From positions 1 to 31,206 of IMG/VR virus record IMGVR_UViG_3300028412_000017: a DNA stretch of 31,206 bases; one strand, 5' to 3'. Below the pieces are notes generated by a model. It did no database searches, had not been told where the DNA came from, and saw only the letters and a list, made by a program, of their open reading frames with translations. The position numbers and the translations under genes were made by a program. The stretch is from a virus. Positions within the stretch are counted from its first letter, which is position 1. Each line of letters begins with the position of its first letter. Below are positions 24,289-31,206 of this stretch, in pieces.

Positions 24289-24329
24289 TTGACAAGGTAA
24301 TTGACATATTTGACAAATACAAGTACAAA
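24289..24329 (+). promoter_or_regulatory. Rightward promoter with repeated TTGACA boxes
   Basis: TTGACA occurs at 24289-24294 and 24301-24306, and TTTGACA at 24309-24315. The second box with a 17-bp spacer leads to TACAAA (24324-24329), a fair sigma-70 -10 element. The 15-mer TTGACATATTTGACA (24301-24315) is repeated exactly, on the other strand, in the promoter near 30901. A start at about 24336 would make the mRNA of the HTH gene leaderless or nearly so. Confidence 0.6.
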
Positions 24330-24334
24330 ATGGC

Positions 24335-24565
24335 GTGAGAAAAGTTACAGTAAAACAAGTTGATTCGTGTTTATTTAAAAACAACGTGTTGTCTTTAGAG
24401 CTAGCAGAACAACTAGGAATCAAACCATCAGCACTATCTAGATGGCGTCAGCGAAATACTATCCCAAAGAAATACTGGGAAACCATTCTTCAAACAATTC
24501 TTTTACTTGCTCGACAGAGTTCACAACAGCAGAATGCCCGCCACAAGAGTGAATTTTTTCTATAA
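24335..24565 (+). CDS. Cro/YdaS-like HTH regulator
   Basis: 76 residues, GTG start without a ribosome binding site, only six bases after the predicted -10 element. Residues 5-50 form a helix-turn-helix of the Cro/YdaS type (CLFKNNVLSLELAEQLGIKP, then SALSRWRQRNTIPKKYWETI). The remaining 25 residues are Gln/Ser-rich and encoded on DNA that is also the antisense end of the VRR-NUC gene (107 bases of overlap). It faces against the recombination operon, so its transcript could reduce that operon's expression. Probably a repressor acting on the TTGACA-repeat promoters; this is inferred from position. Confidence 0.6.
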   Translation: MRKVTVKQVDSCLFKNNVLSLELAEQLGIKPSALSRWRQRNTIPKKYWETILQTILLLARQSSQQQNARHKSEFFL

Positions 24566-26753: not shown

Positions 26754-27482
26754 TTATTTCTTACCTTCCTTTTTATAAATCTTTAACATTACTTGGCTTA
26801 GGTCAGCCGGCATGCGTGCATCAAGCTTGCCGGATCTATCCTTCGCCCCTACGGTTTCTGTCTTGTTCGTGATAAGCACTCGCTCAGACTCGGGAGTGAC
26901 ATGTAGATATAAAACTAAATCAAAGTACTGGGGAATCTTCTTTCCAATCTTCCCACTTATATCAAAAGTTATAAACCGCTTGTTGTTCTCATCCTTGTCC
27001 ACTTCAGAGAGTGCTGTCATGAATACATTGTAATTCGGCAAGTCTCTAAACGCTTTGACAATTCTCTGCATACGCTTGTTGTACTCTCCCCACATAGGGA
27101 AAGAATCCTTGCGGTCTGGGAACTCCTTCTCAACAATGGCAAGAATAATTTCATATATCTCACTCAAAGAATCAATGAAGATGTTATCCCAACGCGGTGT
27201 CTTATCAGCAACAAGCATAGAGTAAACCTGCGTGAGTCGCTGAAGCCTAAGTGCAGGTTCACGAATAAGAGCGCCATCTTCGTCGCGAGTTATATCAACA
27301 AAGTCTATGTCCTTACCCATCAAAGAAAGGTGCCCACTCTCTGCAGAAATAAGCAGTGTTTTCCCGCTTAGCGTTCCAGCTAAACTTGTTTTCCCTGACC
27401 CATATTCTCCAAGGATTACACACTTGATTTTTTGAATAGTCGTGTCATTGGTGTTTTGAATTTTTATCTTATCGTTCGACAT
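26754..27482 (-). CDS. Sak4-like RecA-family ATPase (AAA_24)
   Basis: 242 residues. Walker A GEYGSGKT (25-32) and a Walker B strand WDNIFIDSLSE (D104) are clear. The layout is the minimal RecA-like core of the phage AAA_24/Sak4 family, which anneals or exchanges strands with an SSB-like partner. That partner is the next gene. It opens the leftward recombination operon, divergent from the PrimPol gene across 74 bases. Confidence 0.78.
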   Translation of the reverse strand: MSNDKIKIQNTNDTTIQKIKCVILGEYGSGKTSLAGTLSGKTLLISAESGHLSLMGKDIDFVDITRDEDGALIREPALRLQRLTQVYSMLVADKTPRWDNIFIDSLSEIYEIILAIVEKEFPDRKDSFPMWGEYNKRMQRIVKAFRDLPNYNVFMTALSEVDKDENNKRFITFDISGKIGKKIPQYFDLVLYLHVTPESERVLITNKTETVGAKDRSGKLDARMPADLSQVMLKIYKKEGKK

Positions 27483-27556
27483 GTTGAACTTTTCGTATAA
27501 ACCTTCGCACTTGTCAATTCATATTAAAAATAAAGTCAAAGGGGAAACAACGCACC

Positions 27557-29779
27557 ATGCATCAAAAGTATTTAGATCAAGGATACCTAACACTTCCAGT
27601 CAAACCACGTTCCAAAGCAAGCGCATTAAAAGCAGGTTACTCCCTATATGAATGGGCAACGGAGGGAATGAGTGAAGAGCTTATACAATCCTTTGATGAG
27701 AACTACCCTCTAGAAAAGGGTTACGGTGTGGCACTTATATGTGGCATCAAGTCAGGGGTCATTGCTGTTGACATGGACACCGACGACAAGAACGTGCATG
27801 ACATTATCCCGTGGTCTCCATGCGAAAAGGTAGGCAAGCAATCAACTCGTTTCTTCCGTTACTCCGATGCGTTCAAGACAAAGATAAACATAGGTAAAAA
27901 CGAGGGCAAGCTAAAGGACCATGTTGAGATACTAACATCGGGCCAGTATTGCATACTCCCACCATCGATTCATCCTGATACGAAAAAAGCATATTACTGG
28001 ACAAGTGAAGAAAACCTATTGTGGATTCCAAGTGAAGAGCTGCCAGAGTTAGACCCTCTCGTAGTTGAAGAGCTAACAAGCTACTACAATAGGAAATACA
28101 AGATAACAGGTGCGCAGGCTCAGCGAATCGACTTCAACAAGATCCACGTTAGTGATGAGAGTCGCTGTCCTCATGGCTCACACGATAGGCTAAAGCAGCT
28201 GGCGGCAACACTCATACGTCATGAGCGCCCAATAGATGAGGCGATCAGAGAGCTATACGATTACGACAATGAGAACCACACACCCACTGGATACTTCTTG
28301 GACAAGACCCGAGGCGCGGACTCTAGGTTAGACCCTGAGACAAACGCGGCTCGCTTCTACGTTCAACAGCTGCAGTTCATAAACGCCAAACGAATGCGCG
28401 AGGGTGAAGAACCTCATCGCGTGATCACACCCGACATAGTTCTAGAGTTACCCGATGGTGGCGAGTTCAAGGTCAACGTATCTAAGCTAAAGCCGTATCC
28501 AAAGACGAGAGGTTCAATGGCGCTTGTTCAAGAATACATAGAGCTTGTGACACCTTTCAAGCAAGACGCCATAAGTCTAGGCGCTGCGCTATCTCTTATG
28601 AGTATCCTTTGCGCAAACAAGTTCCGTACTCATGCTGGAAGCTTCGATATTCGGCCTAACCTATACGTACTGAACCTAGCCAAGTCAGGGGCTGGCAAGG
28701 AGACGGCCCAATCGCTTGTCATGGACCTTATCTCTGGCACGAAAATGCTAGGATCAGGTGGCTATAAATCAGGCACCTCAATCGTCAAAGGTCTTCCTGA
28801 TCAACAAGAGCGTCTAAACGTGATCGATGAGGCAGGTGCTTGGCTCAAGTCGATTGGCAATGGTGAGGGTTTTCAACAAGAGATGAATGATATTCTCTCT
28901 GGGATTTTCACAAGGTCCAATGCCTTTTACCCAGGCCTATCGTTTGCTGGGGAGCGCGGAGACAAGCTAGGGGCTTGTTGGAACCCCTCTCTTAGTATAT
29001 TGGCCTCAACAACCGTGCATGCGTTTAAATCAAGTGTGAATCAATCAATGGGCGCTAAGGGGCTTATGCCTCGGTTCCTAACCTTCTGGCAGCATAGCCT
29101 CGGGAAGTACAAGATTCCTAAAAGGTCAGATATTCTAAAGGCAAGTGAGATAAAGAAGCAAATCACAAGCTTTGTAAAGCTCTTTCTAATGAATGAGAAG
29201 CGCCTTCACCCTGACTTCGACATGGGTTCAATGATCACAGTGGACCTAGAGGCTAGTGGAGAAGAGCAGGTCCAGAACTTCGGCAAGCGATATGACCCTG
29301 TTCTAATCCCAATGACCGATGAGGCAGAAGACCGCTACTTTCAATATGCGATGAAGAAAGCCCCGCCGGATACATTACAAGATGCGTTTGATGACCCGTT
29401 TCTAAACCGTCATGCTGAGCTTGCAGGCAAAGTAGCCCTGCTAGACGCAGCCTCGCGTGGAGCGCGTGAGATAGACCTAGAGTGCATGGGATGGGCTATT
29501 GGGGTTGTGGATGTGTGCTGGCAGAACTCTGAGGGGCTGTTTCAACATACAGCGGCTGAGAACGTTACTGAGAAGAATGTCTTGAGGATTTTAGATGTCA
29601 TTAAATCTTGTAAAGAAGTCTGGGTCTCAAAGAAACATATCTCTGATAAGACAAATTGGCTTAAGCCCCATGAAAGGGATCAGGTTCTTGGCCAGTTGAT
29701 TGACTCTGAGAAGATTGAACGCACTGATATGAAGTTAAATGGGTCTAGAAAGGCCAGCAAAGTCTACAAAGCCCTTTGA
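27557..29779 (+). CDS. PrimPol-helicase replication protein
   Basis: 740 residues, with AAAGGGG before the ATG. The N-terminal 170 residues are a bifunctional primase-polymerase domain: VIAVDMDTDD supplies the acidic triad (D72, D74, D76) and PPSIHP the conserved His (H139). A middle helical region is followed by a P-loop ATPase of the DUF3987 kind, with AKSGAGKET (375-383) where the usual Ser/Thr after GK is Glu, and NVIDEAG (D424, E425) as Walker B. A winged-helix-like end (about 670-740) may bind the origin. It would prime and help unwind phage DNA. It lies right next to the repeat region at 29773. Confidence 0.8.
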   Translation: MHQKYLDQGYLTLPVKPRSKASALKAGYSLYEWATEGMSEELIQSFDENYPLEKGYGVALICGIKSGVIAVDMDTDDKNVHDIIPWSPCEKVGKQSTRFFRYSDAFKTKINIGKNEGKLKDHVEILTSGQYCILPPSIHPDTKKAYYWTSEENLLWIPSEELPELDPLVVEELTSYYNRKYKITGAQAQRIDFNKIHVSDESRCPHGSHDRLKQLAATLIRHERPIDEAIRELYDYDNENHTPTGYFLDKTRGADSRLDPETNAARFYVQQLQFINAKRMREGEEPHRVITPDIVLELPDGGEFKVNVSKLKPYPKTRGSMALVQEYIELVTPFKQDAISLGAALSLMSILCANKFRTHAGSFDIRPNLYVLNLAKSGAGKETAQSLVMDLISGTKMLGSGGYKSGTSIVKGLPDQQERLNVIDEAGAWLKSIGNGEGFQQEMNDILSGIFTRSNAFYPGLSFAGERGDKLGACWNPSLSILASTTVHAFKSSVNQSMGAKGLMPRFLTFWQHSLGKYKIPKRSDILKASEIKKQITSFVKLFLMNEKRLHPDFDMGSMITVDLEASGEEQVQNFGKRYDPVLIPMTDEAEDRYFQYAMKKAPPDTLQDAFDDPFLNRHAELAGKVALLDAASRGAREIDLECMGWAIGVVDVCWQNSEGLFQHTAAENVTEKNVLRILDVIKSCKEVWVSKKHISDKTNWLKPHERDQVLGQLIDSEKIERTDMKLNGSRKASKVYKAL

Positions 29780-29855
29780 ATCTAATAATCGGTGGGTTTG
29801 AATAGGTTATTCACCTTTGAATCGAATAATCGGTATAGGGGTGAATAGGCTGACT
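29773..29855. repeat. Two imperfect tandem repeats of about 41 bp (iteron-like)
   Basis: CCTTTGAATCTAATAATCGG starts at 29773 and CCTTTGAATCGAATAATCGG at 29814, with one mismatch. Each is followed at the same distance by GAATAGG (29800 and 29843). AATCTAATAAT returns at 29910-29920. The first copy covers the stop codon of the PrimPol gene. Repeated short sites beside a replication initiator gene are typical of origins. Confidence 0.6.
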
Positions 29856-30030
29856 TTAAGTTTTTGAGATAAACATCCGAATTTACAGGGGTATGTACTC
29901 TATATGAATAATCTAATAATTATAAGGGTATATATATATAAAGAGAGAAAGAAAGAGAGAGTAGTAAATACAGGCACTTAGGAGAGAGGGGGTTTAAAAG
30001 AGAGAGAGGTGGGTATAATTATTCAACTAT
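29780..30030. other. Candidate replication origin region
   Basis: The longest stretch without a gene. In order it holds the tandem repeats, AT-rich DNA, a third iteron copy (29910-29920), a 12-base TA run (29929-29940), a homopurine mirror repeat (29942-29960) and two further purine tracts (29981-29992, 29996-30009). It lies between two convergent genes and shows no clear terminator. Iterons plus an easily melted region beside a PrimPol-helicase gene are the usual ingredients of an origin. Confidence 0.45.
29942..29960. repeat. Homopurine mirror repeat (possible triplex DNA)
   Basis: AGAGAGAAAGAAAGAGAGA reads the same in both directions around G29951, a perfect 19-base mirror repeat within a 22-base all-purine run (29940-29961). 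Such mirror repeats can fold into intramolecular triplex (H-DNA). A run of alternating TA lies directly upstream. Confidence 0.7.
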
Positions 30031-30672
30031 TCATCTTCTAGATAAATTACAAGCCGAGTGAACACACCTAAGAACAGCTTCACCTAAATGGAAAAGACAC
30101 CAAGCACGACTAAACTGCCAATCATCAGACAAAAAAACAACACCCTCGCCTGAACGATCAAACACAACAGGCACAGGATAATGATCAGCATTCAAAAACG
30201 AATCCCTAATCTCTCTAAATGGCTTCACATGATCTATATGTAAATCATCTCTTGATATCGGCTGTCCACACAACTCACAATTCATTAACTCAATGAAATT
30301 CGAATCCCTAAAGTCAACCACCTGAGCAACAACAGCTTTTCTCATCGCTGCGCTTAAATCATTCAAAACACTTGGCTTCGAACCCAAACACTTCTTATAT
30401 GAAAAATCTGTGAAATGATTCACATAACAACCAAGAGAACCACCCAAACCAATTTTAACAACAAATGAGCTTACAGTGCCATTAGACTTCACATAAGCGT
30501 CAGGATGCCTCAAAAACAACGAGAGCAAAAATAACCAATCATCATGACCAGGCACAATAACCTCGCCTTCACAACGCTTGTAAACGCTCCTTATGGCTTC
30601 TGTTGCCGCAACCTTAGACGCGTAAACAACTCCGCCTAGCTCAACACTAATAGCTGGCATTATTAGACTCAT
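30031..30672 (-). CDS. DCL/DUF3223-type HNH endonuclease
   Basis: About 213 residues from the ATG at 30672; ATG 30660 and TTG 30678 are other possible starts. The N-terminal half resembles DCL/DUF3223 domains (VVYASKVAATEAIRSVYKRC, then HDDWLFLLSLFLRHPDAY). The C-terminal part is an HNH nuclease: CELCG, then DLHIDHV with the DH pair, then CLFHLGEAVLRCVHSACN. These nucleases nick or cut DNA and act as homing enzymes or in packaging. It lies at the candidate origin and far from the late genes, which favours a mobile or replication-linked role. Confidence 0.7.
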   Translation of the reverse strand: MSLIMPAISVELGGVVYASKVAATEAIRSVYKRCEGEVIVPGHDDWLFLLSLFLRHPDAYVKSNGTVSSFVVKIGLGGSLGCYVNHFTDFSYKKCLGSKPSVLNDLSAAMRKAVVAQVVDFRDSNFIELMNCELCGQPISRDDLHIDHVKPFREIRDSFLNADHYPVPVVFDRSGEGVVFLSDDWQFSRAWCLFHLGEAVLRCVHSACNLSRR

Positions 30673-30859
30673 CGCCAAACAACACTATCTTCACACCATT
30701 AGGGATCAACGTCACAAAACCATCAAAAGCACCGCTAGCCTTCATACCCATAATGGCATTCAACAACGTATTCCGGTCCTCAGCGTAAACCTCAATCCAA
30801 TCATCACCCCTATGACTCTTGTACGTGTAATCCTCAAATATCCTCTGTAAATTATGCAT
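30647..30859 (-). CDS. Small protein ahead of the HNH gene, unknown
   Basis: About 70 residues from the ATG at 30859, 7 bases after TAAAGG; ATGs at 30862 and 30880 are also in frame. The predicted promoter at 30887-30915 would start RNA near 30880, which fits the inner start. The protein is mixed alpha/beta (DDWIEVYAEDRNTLLNAIMG, then GFVTLIPNGVKIVLFGDES). No family recognised. It is translated together with the HNH gene, which begins inside it. Confidence 0.5.
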   Translation of the reverse strand: MHNLQRIFEDYTYKSHRGDDWIEVYAEDRNTLLNAIMGMKASGAFDGFVTLIPNGVKIVLFGDESNNASY

Positions 30860-30886
30860 CATGTAACCTTTATTACTCATAAATGA

Positions 30887-30915
30887 CTTATAGTGTTAAA
30901 TGTCAAATATGTCAA
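30887..30915 (-). promoter_or_regulatory. Leftward sigma-70-type promoter with TTGACA repeats
   Basis: Read leftward: TTGACA (30915-30910), 17-bp spacer, TATAAG (30892-30887). The -35 is part of TTGACATATTTGACA, identical to 24301-24315, with the same distance to the -10 box. RNA would start near 30880, giving about 20 bases ahead of the ATG at 30859. Confidence 0.7.
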
Positions 30916-30991
30916 ATGAATGTCGTAGCTAAAGGGAATAATCGAGCTGCAATAGCCACCTTTTTGCACGCAATTTGTATTGACAACAAAA

Positions 30992-31020
30992 TAGACTAAA
31001 CGTCACTTTGTTGGCATACT
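30992..31020 (+). promoter_or_regulatory. Possible rightward promoter of the ParB-domain gene
   Basis: TAGACT (30992-30997), 17-bp spacer, CATACT (31015-31020) preceded by TG, an extended -10 form. Matches to consensus are partial. If used, transcription would begin almost at the GTG of the gene at 31028, which has no ribosome binding site. Confidence 0.35.
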
Positions 31021-31027
31021 CCCTCTA

Positions 31028-31206
31028 GTGAATACCGAGATTGTCATAAAATGGGTTGACCCTAAAACTCTAAAACCAAGCCCAGACAATCCAAACGATC
31101 ACACTCAAGAACAAATAGAACGATTAGCTGAAATACTCCTATACCAAGGGTTTAGATCACCCATCGTCGTATCAAACCAAACTGGAAACATCACCACAGG
31201 ACACGG
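31028..31206 (+). CDS. ParB-like domain protein, N-terminus (cut by window edge)
   Basis: The first 59 residues of a gene running off the right edge, starting at GTG. The sequence (VIKWVDPKTLKPSPDNPNDH, then QIERLAEILLYQGFRSPIVV, then ITTGHG at the cut) is the beginning of a ParB/Srx-type domain: a linker, a helix, and a strand leading to the GHG/R motif. In phages such a domain often precedes a DNA methyltransferase or acts as a nuclease or regulator. Which one applies cannot be seen here. There is no ribosome binding site, so the start is uncertain. Confidence 0.65.
   Translation, partial: MNTEIVIKWVDPKTLKPSPDNPNDHTQEQIERLAEILLYQGFRSPIVVSNQTGNITTGH

Follow-up and report, generated by a model that had tools for sequence, protein, structure and literature searches.

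A candidate replication site directly downstream of the PrimPol gene in a phage from the IMG/VR database

Introduction

The closest described parallel to the site analysed here, which follows the PrimPol gene in the complete, 31,206-base IMG/VR virus record IMGVR_UViG_3300028412_000017 (the window, classed linear), is the stem-loop of the Sulfolobus plasmid pRN1; among open-licence papers in PubMed Central (PMC) nothing closer was found than the study of that plasmid (PMC4234260). The minimal replicon of pRN1 requires a stem-loop of about 100 bp, 54 bp past the PrimPol gene, which is predicted at 75 °C to have a 21-nt stem and a 58-nt loop. One change in the stem was tolerated only with a matching change in its partner, and a small terminator-like hairpin between the gene and the stem-loop could be deleted (PMC4234260). 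The plasmid is said to be free of iterons, and the authors claim no direct proof of an origin. They propose that proteins combining an archaeo-eukaryotic primase (AEP), a helicase and a winged helix recognise stem-loops on the 3' side of their own genes, also in phage BIP-1, to which phage BPP-1 is called nearly identical (PMC4234260). A second paper predicts the DUF3987 domains of mobile-element primases to be helicases and proposes origin recognition as a role of C-terminal winged helices (PMC5862659).

A related arrangement is found in the record of phage P4: the gene for the alpha primase is immediately followed by crr, which contains ten type 1 ori repeats, a repeat type bound by alpha, and six more such repeats lie in ori, about 4.5 kb away from crr. 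To our knowledge, few PrimPol-driven phage origins have been mapped. Here we describe positions 29773-30034 of the window, which we take, with a probability of roughly 0.62, to be the main cis-acting replication site of this phage, either an origin or an essential part of one, bound by the C-terminal domain of its PrimPol. The idea of an origin on the 3' side of a PrimPol's own gene is not new; the site described here is a variant in that it joins a stem-loop of pRN1-like geometry to iterons.

Results

An inverted repeat and iterons follow the PrimPol gene

Two elements that the preliminary description of this DNA had overlooked stand out after the gene (Table 1): a large inverted repeat, 29904-29924/30014-30034, and a small hairpin, 29803-29852, that carries a TATTCACC/GGTGAATA pair. 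The large inverted repeat has 21-nt arms, complementary at 18/21 positions, on either side of an 89-nt loop and spans 131 bp, from +125 to +255 relative to the PrimPol stop. It is the strongest long-loop inverted repeat of the record and the only one in the window at a threshold of 18/21 with a gap of up to 160. None of 484 same-length background windows of the record scores as high, and a repeat at 18/21 arose in 2/40 shuffles of the whole window and in 0/1000 local shuffles.

The loop of the inverted repeat consists of a TA run and purine tracts. Both had been pointed out before, as a 12-base TA run and as long purine tracts, and both are borne out: the former is the only TA run of at least 8 bases in the window, and the longer (22 bases, at 29940) of the window's two purine or pyrimidine runs of at least 18 is found here. 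Of the purine mirror repeats of the window, only that at 29942 has arms of at least 8, and the window's richest 74-bp purine stretch, 84% purine, starts at 29940.

Nearer to the gene, and partly overlapping it, are direct repeats. These had been taken for a tandem repeat of about 41 bp with a third, partial copy. Two copies do lie 41 bp apart and are 95% identical, but conservation is limited to 21 bp, and the 29773/29814 pair is missing from the output of Tandem Repeats Finder even at a score of 30. With up to three mismatches the pattern TTTGAATCKAATAATCGG occurs in the window at these two places only (shuffle mean 0.07, with 0/100 shuffles reaching two). The third copy is indeed present, as an exact 11-mer, and AATCKAATAAT occurs exactly in the window only as the cores of these three copies (29779, 29820 and 29910); three cores with at most one mismatch were seen in 1/500 local shuffles. 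A possible fourth, inverted copy is not beyond chance on its own, since matches with two mismatches number 23 in the window. Of the 26 places in the window where the hexamer TGAATA/TATTCA occurs, 6 fall within 29799-30033, and the only hexamers that cluster more strongly are AGAGAG/GAGAGA, from the purine tract, and CCACCA, from a glycine-rich gene. Ranked by 12-mer repeat pairs with at most one mismatch, the region comes second to a glycine-rich coding repeat near 21.8 kb.

Table 1. Features at and around the candidate replication site, in window coordinates.
Feature	Position	Strand	Remarks
PrimPol-type primase/polymerase with DUF3987 ATPase (predicted helicase)	27557..29779	+	Presumed origin-binding initiator
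Direct repeat copy 1, CCTTTGAATCTAATAATCGGT	29773..29793	+	Overlaps last PrimPol codons; core AATCTAATAAT at 29779-29789
Small hairpin	29803..29852	+	24 bp past PrimPol stop; 21 RNA pairs
Half-site GGTGAATA (+ strand reads TATTCACC)	29808..29815	-	Matches 2/16 P4 type 1 ori repeats
Direct repeat copy 2, CCTTTGAATCGAATAATCGGT	29814..29834	+	Core AATCGAATAAT at 29820-29830
Half-site GGTGAATA	29840..29847	+	Inverted partner of 29808-29815, within small hairpin
Left arm, large inverted repeat	29904..29924	+	Begins 125 bp past PrimPol stop
Iteron core copy 3, exact 11-mer AATCTAATAAT	29910..29920	+	In left arm of inverted repeat
12-base TA run	29929..29940		Inside loop of large repeat; presumed melting element
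22-base purine tract	29940..29961	+	In loop; 19-nt purine mirror repeat from 29942, triplex potential
Second purine-rich stretch of loop	29980..30009	+	Interrupted by TTT
Right arm, large inverted repeat	30014..30034	-	Overlaps stop of leftward ORF 30031-30678
Possible inverted core copy 4, AGTTGAATAAT	30018..30028	-	2 mismatches; in right arm of inverted repeat

The small hairpin is possibly a terminator or an mRNA 3' end, as well as a carrier of half-sites. As RNA, positions 29765-29880 fold with -31.6 kcal/mol (z-score -3.0), and 1/200 shuffles fold as well. The site lies after a replication gene and between convergent genes, as had been stated: PrimPol ends at 29779 and the leftward open reading frame (ORF) 30031-30678 ends at 30031.

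The protein encoded upstream matches Prim-Pol (E 3e-11) and DUF3987 (E 4e-12) in Pfam, and DNA primase in PHROG (E 4.7e-47). Its C-terminal domain looks winged-helix-like, judged by eye from a helix-turn-helix (HTH)-like pattern in the C-terminal alignment and from what has been published on related primases (PMC5862659). Pfam gave no match to a winged helix in the C-terminus, and a structure model of these 127 residues, made with no alignment, had a mean predicted local distance difference test score (pLDDT) of 42.5 and was discarded. The profile of 22 primases matches solved primase structures in its first part only, at profile positions up to 287.

Comparable sites in other phages

A tblastn search with PrimPol gave 45 phage records at E <=1e-5, with about 22-34% identity among the best 20 of the 45, and 95 at E <=1e-3, the best 60 of which were considered. 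We compared 25 named-phage loci (L002-L010, L023-L033, L037 and L039-L042), which are not a complete set; 18 were reached through the window PrimPol, 6 (L029-L032, L039 and L042) through the primase of phage VpKK5 and 1 through gap DNA, and L002/L004, L003/L005 and L006/L010 are pairs of near relatives. In Pfam, DUF3987 is matched by 16 and Prim-Pol by 7 of the 22 comparator primases that were aligned; the match to Mcat10 covers query residues 310-508 only, which is the ATPase part. The sizes of the gaps downstream of the primase genes follow the records' own annotation, and the gap of L009 resembles an unannotated ORF. A gap limit of 250 bp was set after the first 21 loci; L039-L042 were fetched later, and the three of them with a gap agreed.

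Seven loci have about 255-587 bp between the primase gene and the next annotated gene, and in each of them the strongest inverted repeat of this gap beats every same-length background window of the locus. The arms pair at 25/31 positions with a 38-nt loop in VpKK5 (background 0/98), 18/23 with a 69-nt loop in Baskent_P4_1 (0/66), 38/41 with a 64-nt loop in pCB2051-A (0/52), 19/20 with a 77-nt loop in Bhz54 (0/58), 18/18 with a 136-nt loop in phiAxp-1 (0/85), 33/40 with a 147-nt loop in Mcat10 (0/32) and 14/14 with a 131-nt loop in RHph_TM3_3_14B (0/139). The repeat starts between +70 and +83 in six of the seven and at +10 in Mcat10. Bhz54 (L037) does not count as independent, having been reached by way of its gap, which resembles that of Baskent_P4_1; the two gaps are homologous, with 76% identity over 69% of the query, and the seven loci therefore represent six independent cases. 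The gene beyond the gap runs in the same direction as the primase gene in 7/7, so the structure cannot be put down to convergent transcription.

These phages resemble the window phage in having an inverted repeat after the primase gene that tops the locus, in having TA runs within the gap in three cases (VpKK5, Baskent_P4_1 and Mcat10) and iterons in several. Short iterons in both orientations are found in phiAxp-1, Mcat10, RHph_TM3_3_14B and the Baskent_P4_1/Bhz54 pair. They differ in that each has a repeat word of its own, such as GTGTTTTCGGT/ACCGAAAACAC in phiAxp-1 and CGCAGACAA/TTGTCTGCG in Mcat10, and in that six of the seven have more exact repeats than the window site. By the count of exact 10-mer pairs, 6/7 surpass all their background windows, whereas VpKK5 is equalled by 2/98; the count for Bhz54 is inflated by a 77-bp tandem duplication. 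This duplication in the Stenotrophomonas phage Bhz54 (L037 3671-3824) is exact and ends the primase gap, and may be real or an assembly artefact. In the Loktanella phage pCB2051-A the primase gap contains both of the highest-scoring inverted repeats of the locus. A second long inverted repeat of this gap (L032 5073-5206) has 56-nt arms and a 22-nt loop.

Comparison with pRN1 and P4

Two features of the pRN1 site are also found in the window, namely the position on the 3' side of an AEP/PrimPol gene and a large stem-loop (131 bp, 18/21 pairs). In both elements the primase is joined to an ATPase, and in pRN1 also to a C-terminal winged helix; the site is directly 3' of the gene, and a small hairpin is followed by a large stem-loop. 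The geometry is similar without being the same, with a 21-nt stem and a 58-nt loop at +54 in pRN1 as against 21-nt arms and an 89-nt loop at +125 in the window phage. There are also differences: pRN1 is said to have no iterons, whereas the window site combines direct repeats with a TA run and purine tracts; the helicase domain belongs to superfamily 3 in pRN1 and to DUF3987 in the window phage; and one change in the pRN1 stem needed a matching change in its partner, whereas the window stem has three mismatches and a weak fold.

With P4 the window phage shares replication repeats in both orientations directly downstream of a primase-helicase gene, and the word TATTCACC, which is the reading of two of the P4 type 1 repeats (4366 and 4546), the other 14 of the 16 differing from the window word. 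Of all window positions, 29808 and 29840 score highest against a matrix built from the 16 P4 repeats. P4 was picked in part for the likeness of GGTGAATAGG to its repeat, taken as GGTGAACAG, so the word match is not a blind test. There are only two repeats of the TGTTCACC type at the window site, both of the TATTCACC variant and forming an inverted pair in one hairpin, as opposed to 16 type 1 repeats in P4, which moreover has a separate ori. Local shuffles gave at least one P4-matrix site in 50/3000 cases and two in 0/3000. No P4-type site was found in the downstream gaps of the 21 comparators scanned (all but L039-L042), and alpha has no significant similarity to the window PrimPol by hhalign or BLASTP. 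The match to P4 is thus suggestive only, because a single hairpin makes both sites, shuffles give some, P4 was not a blind choice, the comparator gaps scanned have none and alpha is not detectably related to the window PrimPol.

Discussion

The suggestion that this region is a likely origin is, as judged from the sequence and its analysis, the best-supported reading of what is still a candidate site. It is supported because the inverted repeat is unique in the window, because six independent phages show matching placement and because the stem-loop of pRN1 and crr of P4 are similarly placed.

Several observations weigh against this reading. None of the six comparators with gaps of 94-201 bp has an outstanding inverted repeat, the lowest share of background windows scoring as high being 6/127 (L026), and 12/25 comparators, including POR1, have no usable gap, the next annotated gene being less than 90 bp away. 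Placement of the site after the gene is therefore not universal. The strongest inverted repeat that BPP-1 has within 605 bp lies at +467, away from the gene, with a 20-nt loop. The large stem of the window is weak when folded as single-stranded DNA (-3.6 and -4.2 kcal/mol, with shuffles as good), so that melting or protein binding would seem a likelier role for the arms than spontaneous extrusion. The density of exact 10-mer pairs is ordinary, being equalled by 21/461 background windows, and from this we regard the repeats as real but few. Cumulative GC skew, which had been put forward as a check, does not decide the matter and lends no support: the curve tracks the direction of the genes, with its peak near 22.5 kb, and the skew at third positions across 28 genes has no clean switch at 29.8 kb. 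A blastn search with the 3' end of the window and searches with PrimPol (in viral_contigs and genome_contigs), the repeat pattern and the helicase gave, outside the metagenome collection, no close relative usable for testing conservation or covariation. Finally, about 3.7-4.2 kb is absent from the record and could hold an origin.

The main rival is that the region is a bidirectional terminator between convergent genes, which we consider unlikely and which could coexist with an origin. The hairpin 29803-29852 would then end or protect the PrimPol mRNA, and the leftward RNA 30012-29939, which is C/U-rich and G-poor, would act as a rut-like Rho site keeping the leftward transcript out of PrimPol. 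The convergent gene ends and the strength of the RNA hairpin (z-score -3.0) fit this, as does the leftward strand of 29939-30012, which is 82% pyrimidine and mostly unpaired in the predicted fold of a region that folds no better than shuffles. On the other hand, no canonical intrinsic terminator, with a GC-rich stem and a U tract, was detected in 27400-31206, compared with a shuffle mean of 3.1. Termination also leaves the three exact iteron cores and the 21-bp inverted repeat with its 89-nt loop unexplained, and convergence is not required, as the next gene is codirectional in all seven large-gap comparators. In P4 and pRN1 the gene is separated from the replication site by a terminator or a hairpin resembling one, and a double role as terminator and replication site is for this reason plausible.

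Two further explanations are, in our view, very unlikely, and about equally so. In the first, the repeats would be an operator array binding a phage regulator of early transcription, with the AT-rich and purine DNA incidental. Repeated words in both orientations are operator-like, and there are small phage proteins with weak HTH-like matches, below curated cut-offs, but the gap yielded no promoter-like site, both flanking genes end there, and two of the divergent promoter regions carry another word, TTGACATATTTGACA, exact AATCKAATAAT being confined to the site. In the second, the region would be ordinary 3'-intergenic filler, an AT-rich, purine-biased spacer with chance repeats. This is in keeping with the unexceptional 10-mer pair density and the weak single-stranded stem; it does not, however, sit well with an 18/21 inverted repeat seen in 0/1000 local shuffles, three cores (at most one mismatch) seen in 1/500 or a placement that recurs in six independent phages. 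An attachment, resolution or packaging site (attP, dif-like, pac/cos) is barely credible: sites of this kind can consist of repeats flanking an AT-rich core, but no integrase was named by Pfam or PHROGs among the 34 window proteins scanned, several small ORFs being outside the scan, and the relatives' packaging genes lie beyond the ParB-methyltransferase gene.

If 29773-30034 is a replication site, we infer that PrimPol binding, melting, priming and initiation would all take place there. PrimPol, produced from the gene directly upstream, may bind through its C-terminal domain to the AATCKAATAAT iterons, the GGTGAATA half-sites in the small hairpin, or both. Binding would load the DUF3987 helicase ring, the adjoining block of inverted arms around the TA run and the 22-base purine tract would be extruded or melted, and the AEP domain could then prime the exposed strands. 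The leftward-encoded single-stranded DNA-binding (SSB)-like and Sak4-like proteins and the helicase might assist fork start and recombination.

It is conceivable, if rather doubtful, that PrimPol-type phages, PrimPol plasmids and P4-like satellites share a class of origin directly 3' of the initiator gene, with private iterons in both orientations, an AT-rich centre and long inverted arms. The window phage would then be an intermediate, having the pRN1 geometry together with iterons and keeping the P4 word though the proteins are unrelated in sequence. The stem-loop rule proposed for pRN1 in 2014, and for one phage group, is extended here, with exceptions, to six independent phages and the window phage. 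As a search rule, looking directly after a PrimPol-DUF3987 gene for an AT-rich centre flanked by iterons and inverted arms would give testable origin predictions for phages of this type, and such sites would be small cassettes for the biochemistry of origin recognition by primase-polymerases.

Genome context

The late genes of the record run rightward up to 22.2 kb and are followed by leftward genes, which include those for a VRR-NUC protein, a helicase, a DUF669/SSB-like protein and the Sak4-like protein. The PrimPol-DUF3987 gene is rightward again, and two small ORFs run leftward across 30031-30880. By the Pfam and PHROG scans the genes neighbouring the site form a replication and recombination module, which also favours reading the site as an origin. 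No nickase was named by any family scan of the window proteins, among which no nickase-specific (rolling circle) search was made.

The left end of the record is inside the portal gene and the right end inside a ParB-like ORF, which is the start of a ParB-methyltransferase according to relatives with a common capsid protein. In one of these, contig L011, the terminase gene is between the ParB-methyltransferase and portal genes. The figure of about 3.7-4.2 kb absent between the record ends follows from the relatives' placing of ParB-methyltransferase and terminase before portal; they suggest that it comprises the remaining methyltransferase, the terminase and the start of portal. Seven contigs (L011-L017) with a major capsid protein 64-76% identical to that of the window gave no match to PrimPol or Sak4, which hints at exchange of the replication module in this phage group; the contigs may be incomplete and five of them are shorter than 16 kb, so this is no proof of absence. 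Weak blastn matches of window positions ~29892-29927 to two Vibrio autographiviruses (E 0.006 and 0.08) were taken as chance or an unrelated promoter; the match in R25D is upstream of a gene, that in the second virus is in an unannotated record, and the other 10 of the 12 records had E >=0.9.

The leftward ORFs of 30031-30880 have the top coding-strand third-position skews among the 28 genes, with GC skews of 0.53 and 0.44 and AT skews of -0.49 and -0.79. The larger of the two has a weak HNH match, below the cut-off. The 15-mer TTGACATATTTGACA is found exactly at 24301-24315 (+) and 30901-30915 (-), in opposite orientations in two divergent promoter regions, with no third occurrence in the window even with 3 mismatches. 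It is perhaps a shared operator or early promoter element, possibly of the small HTH-like protein encoded at 24335-24565.

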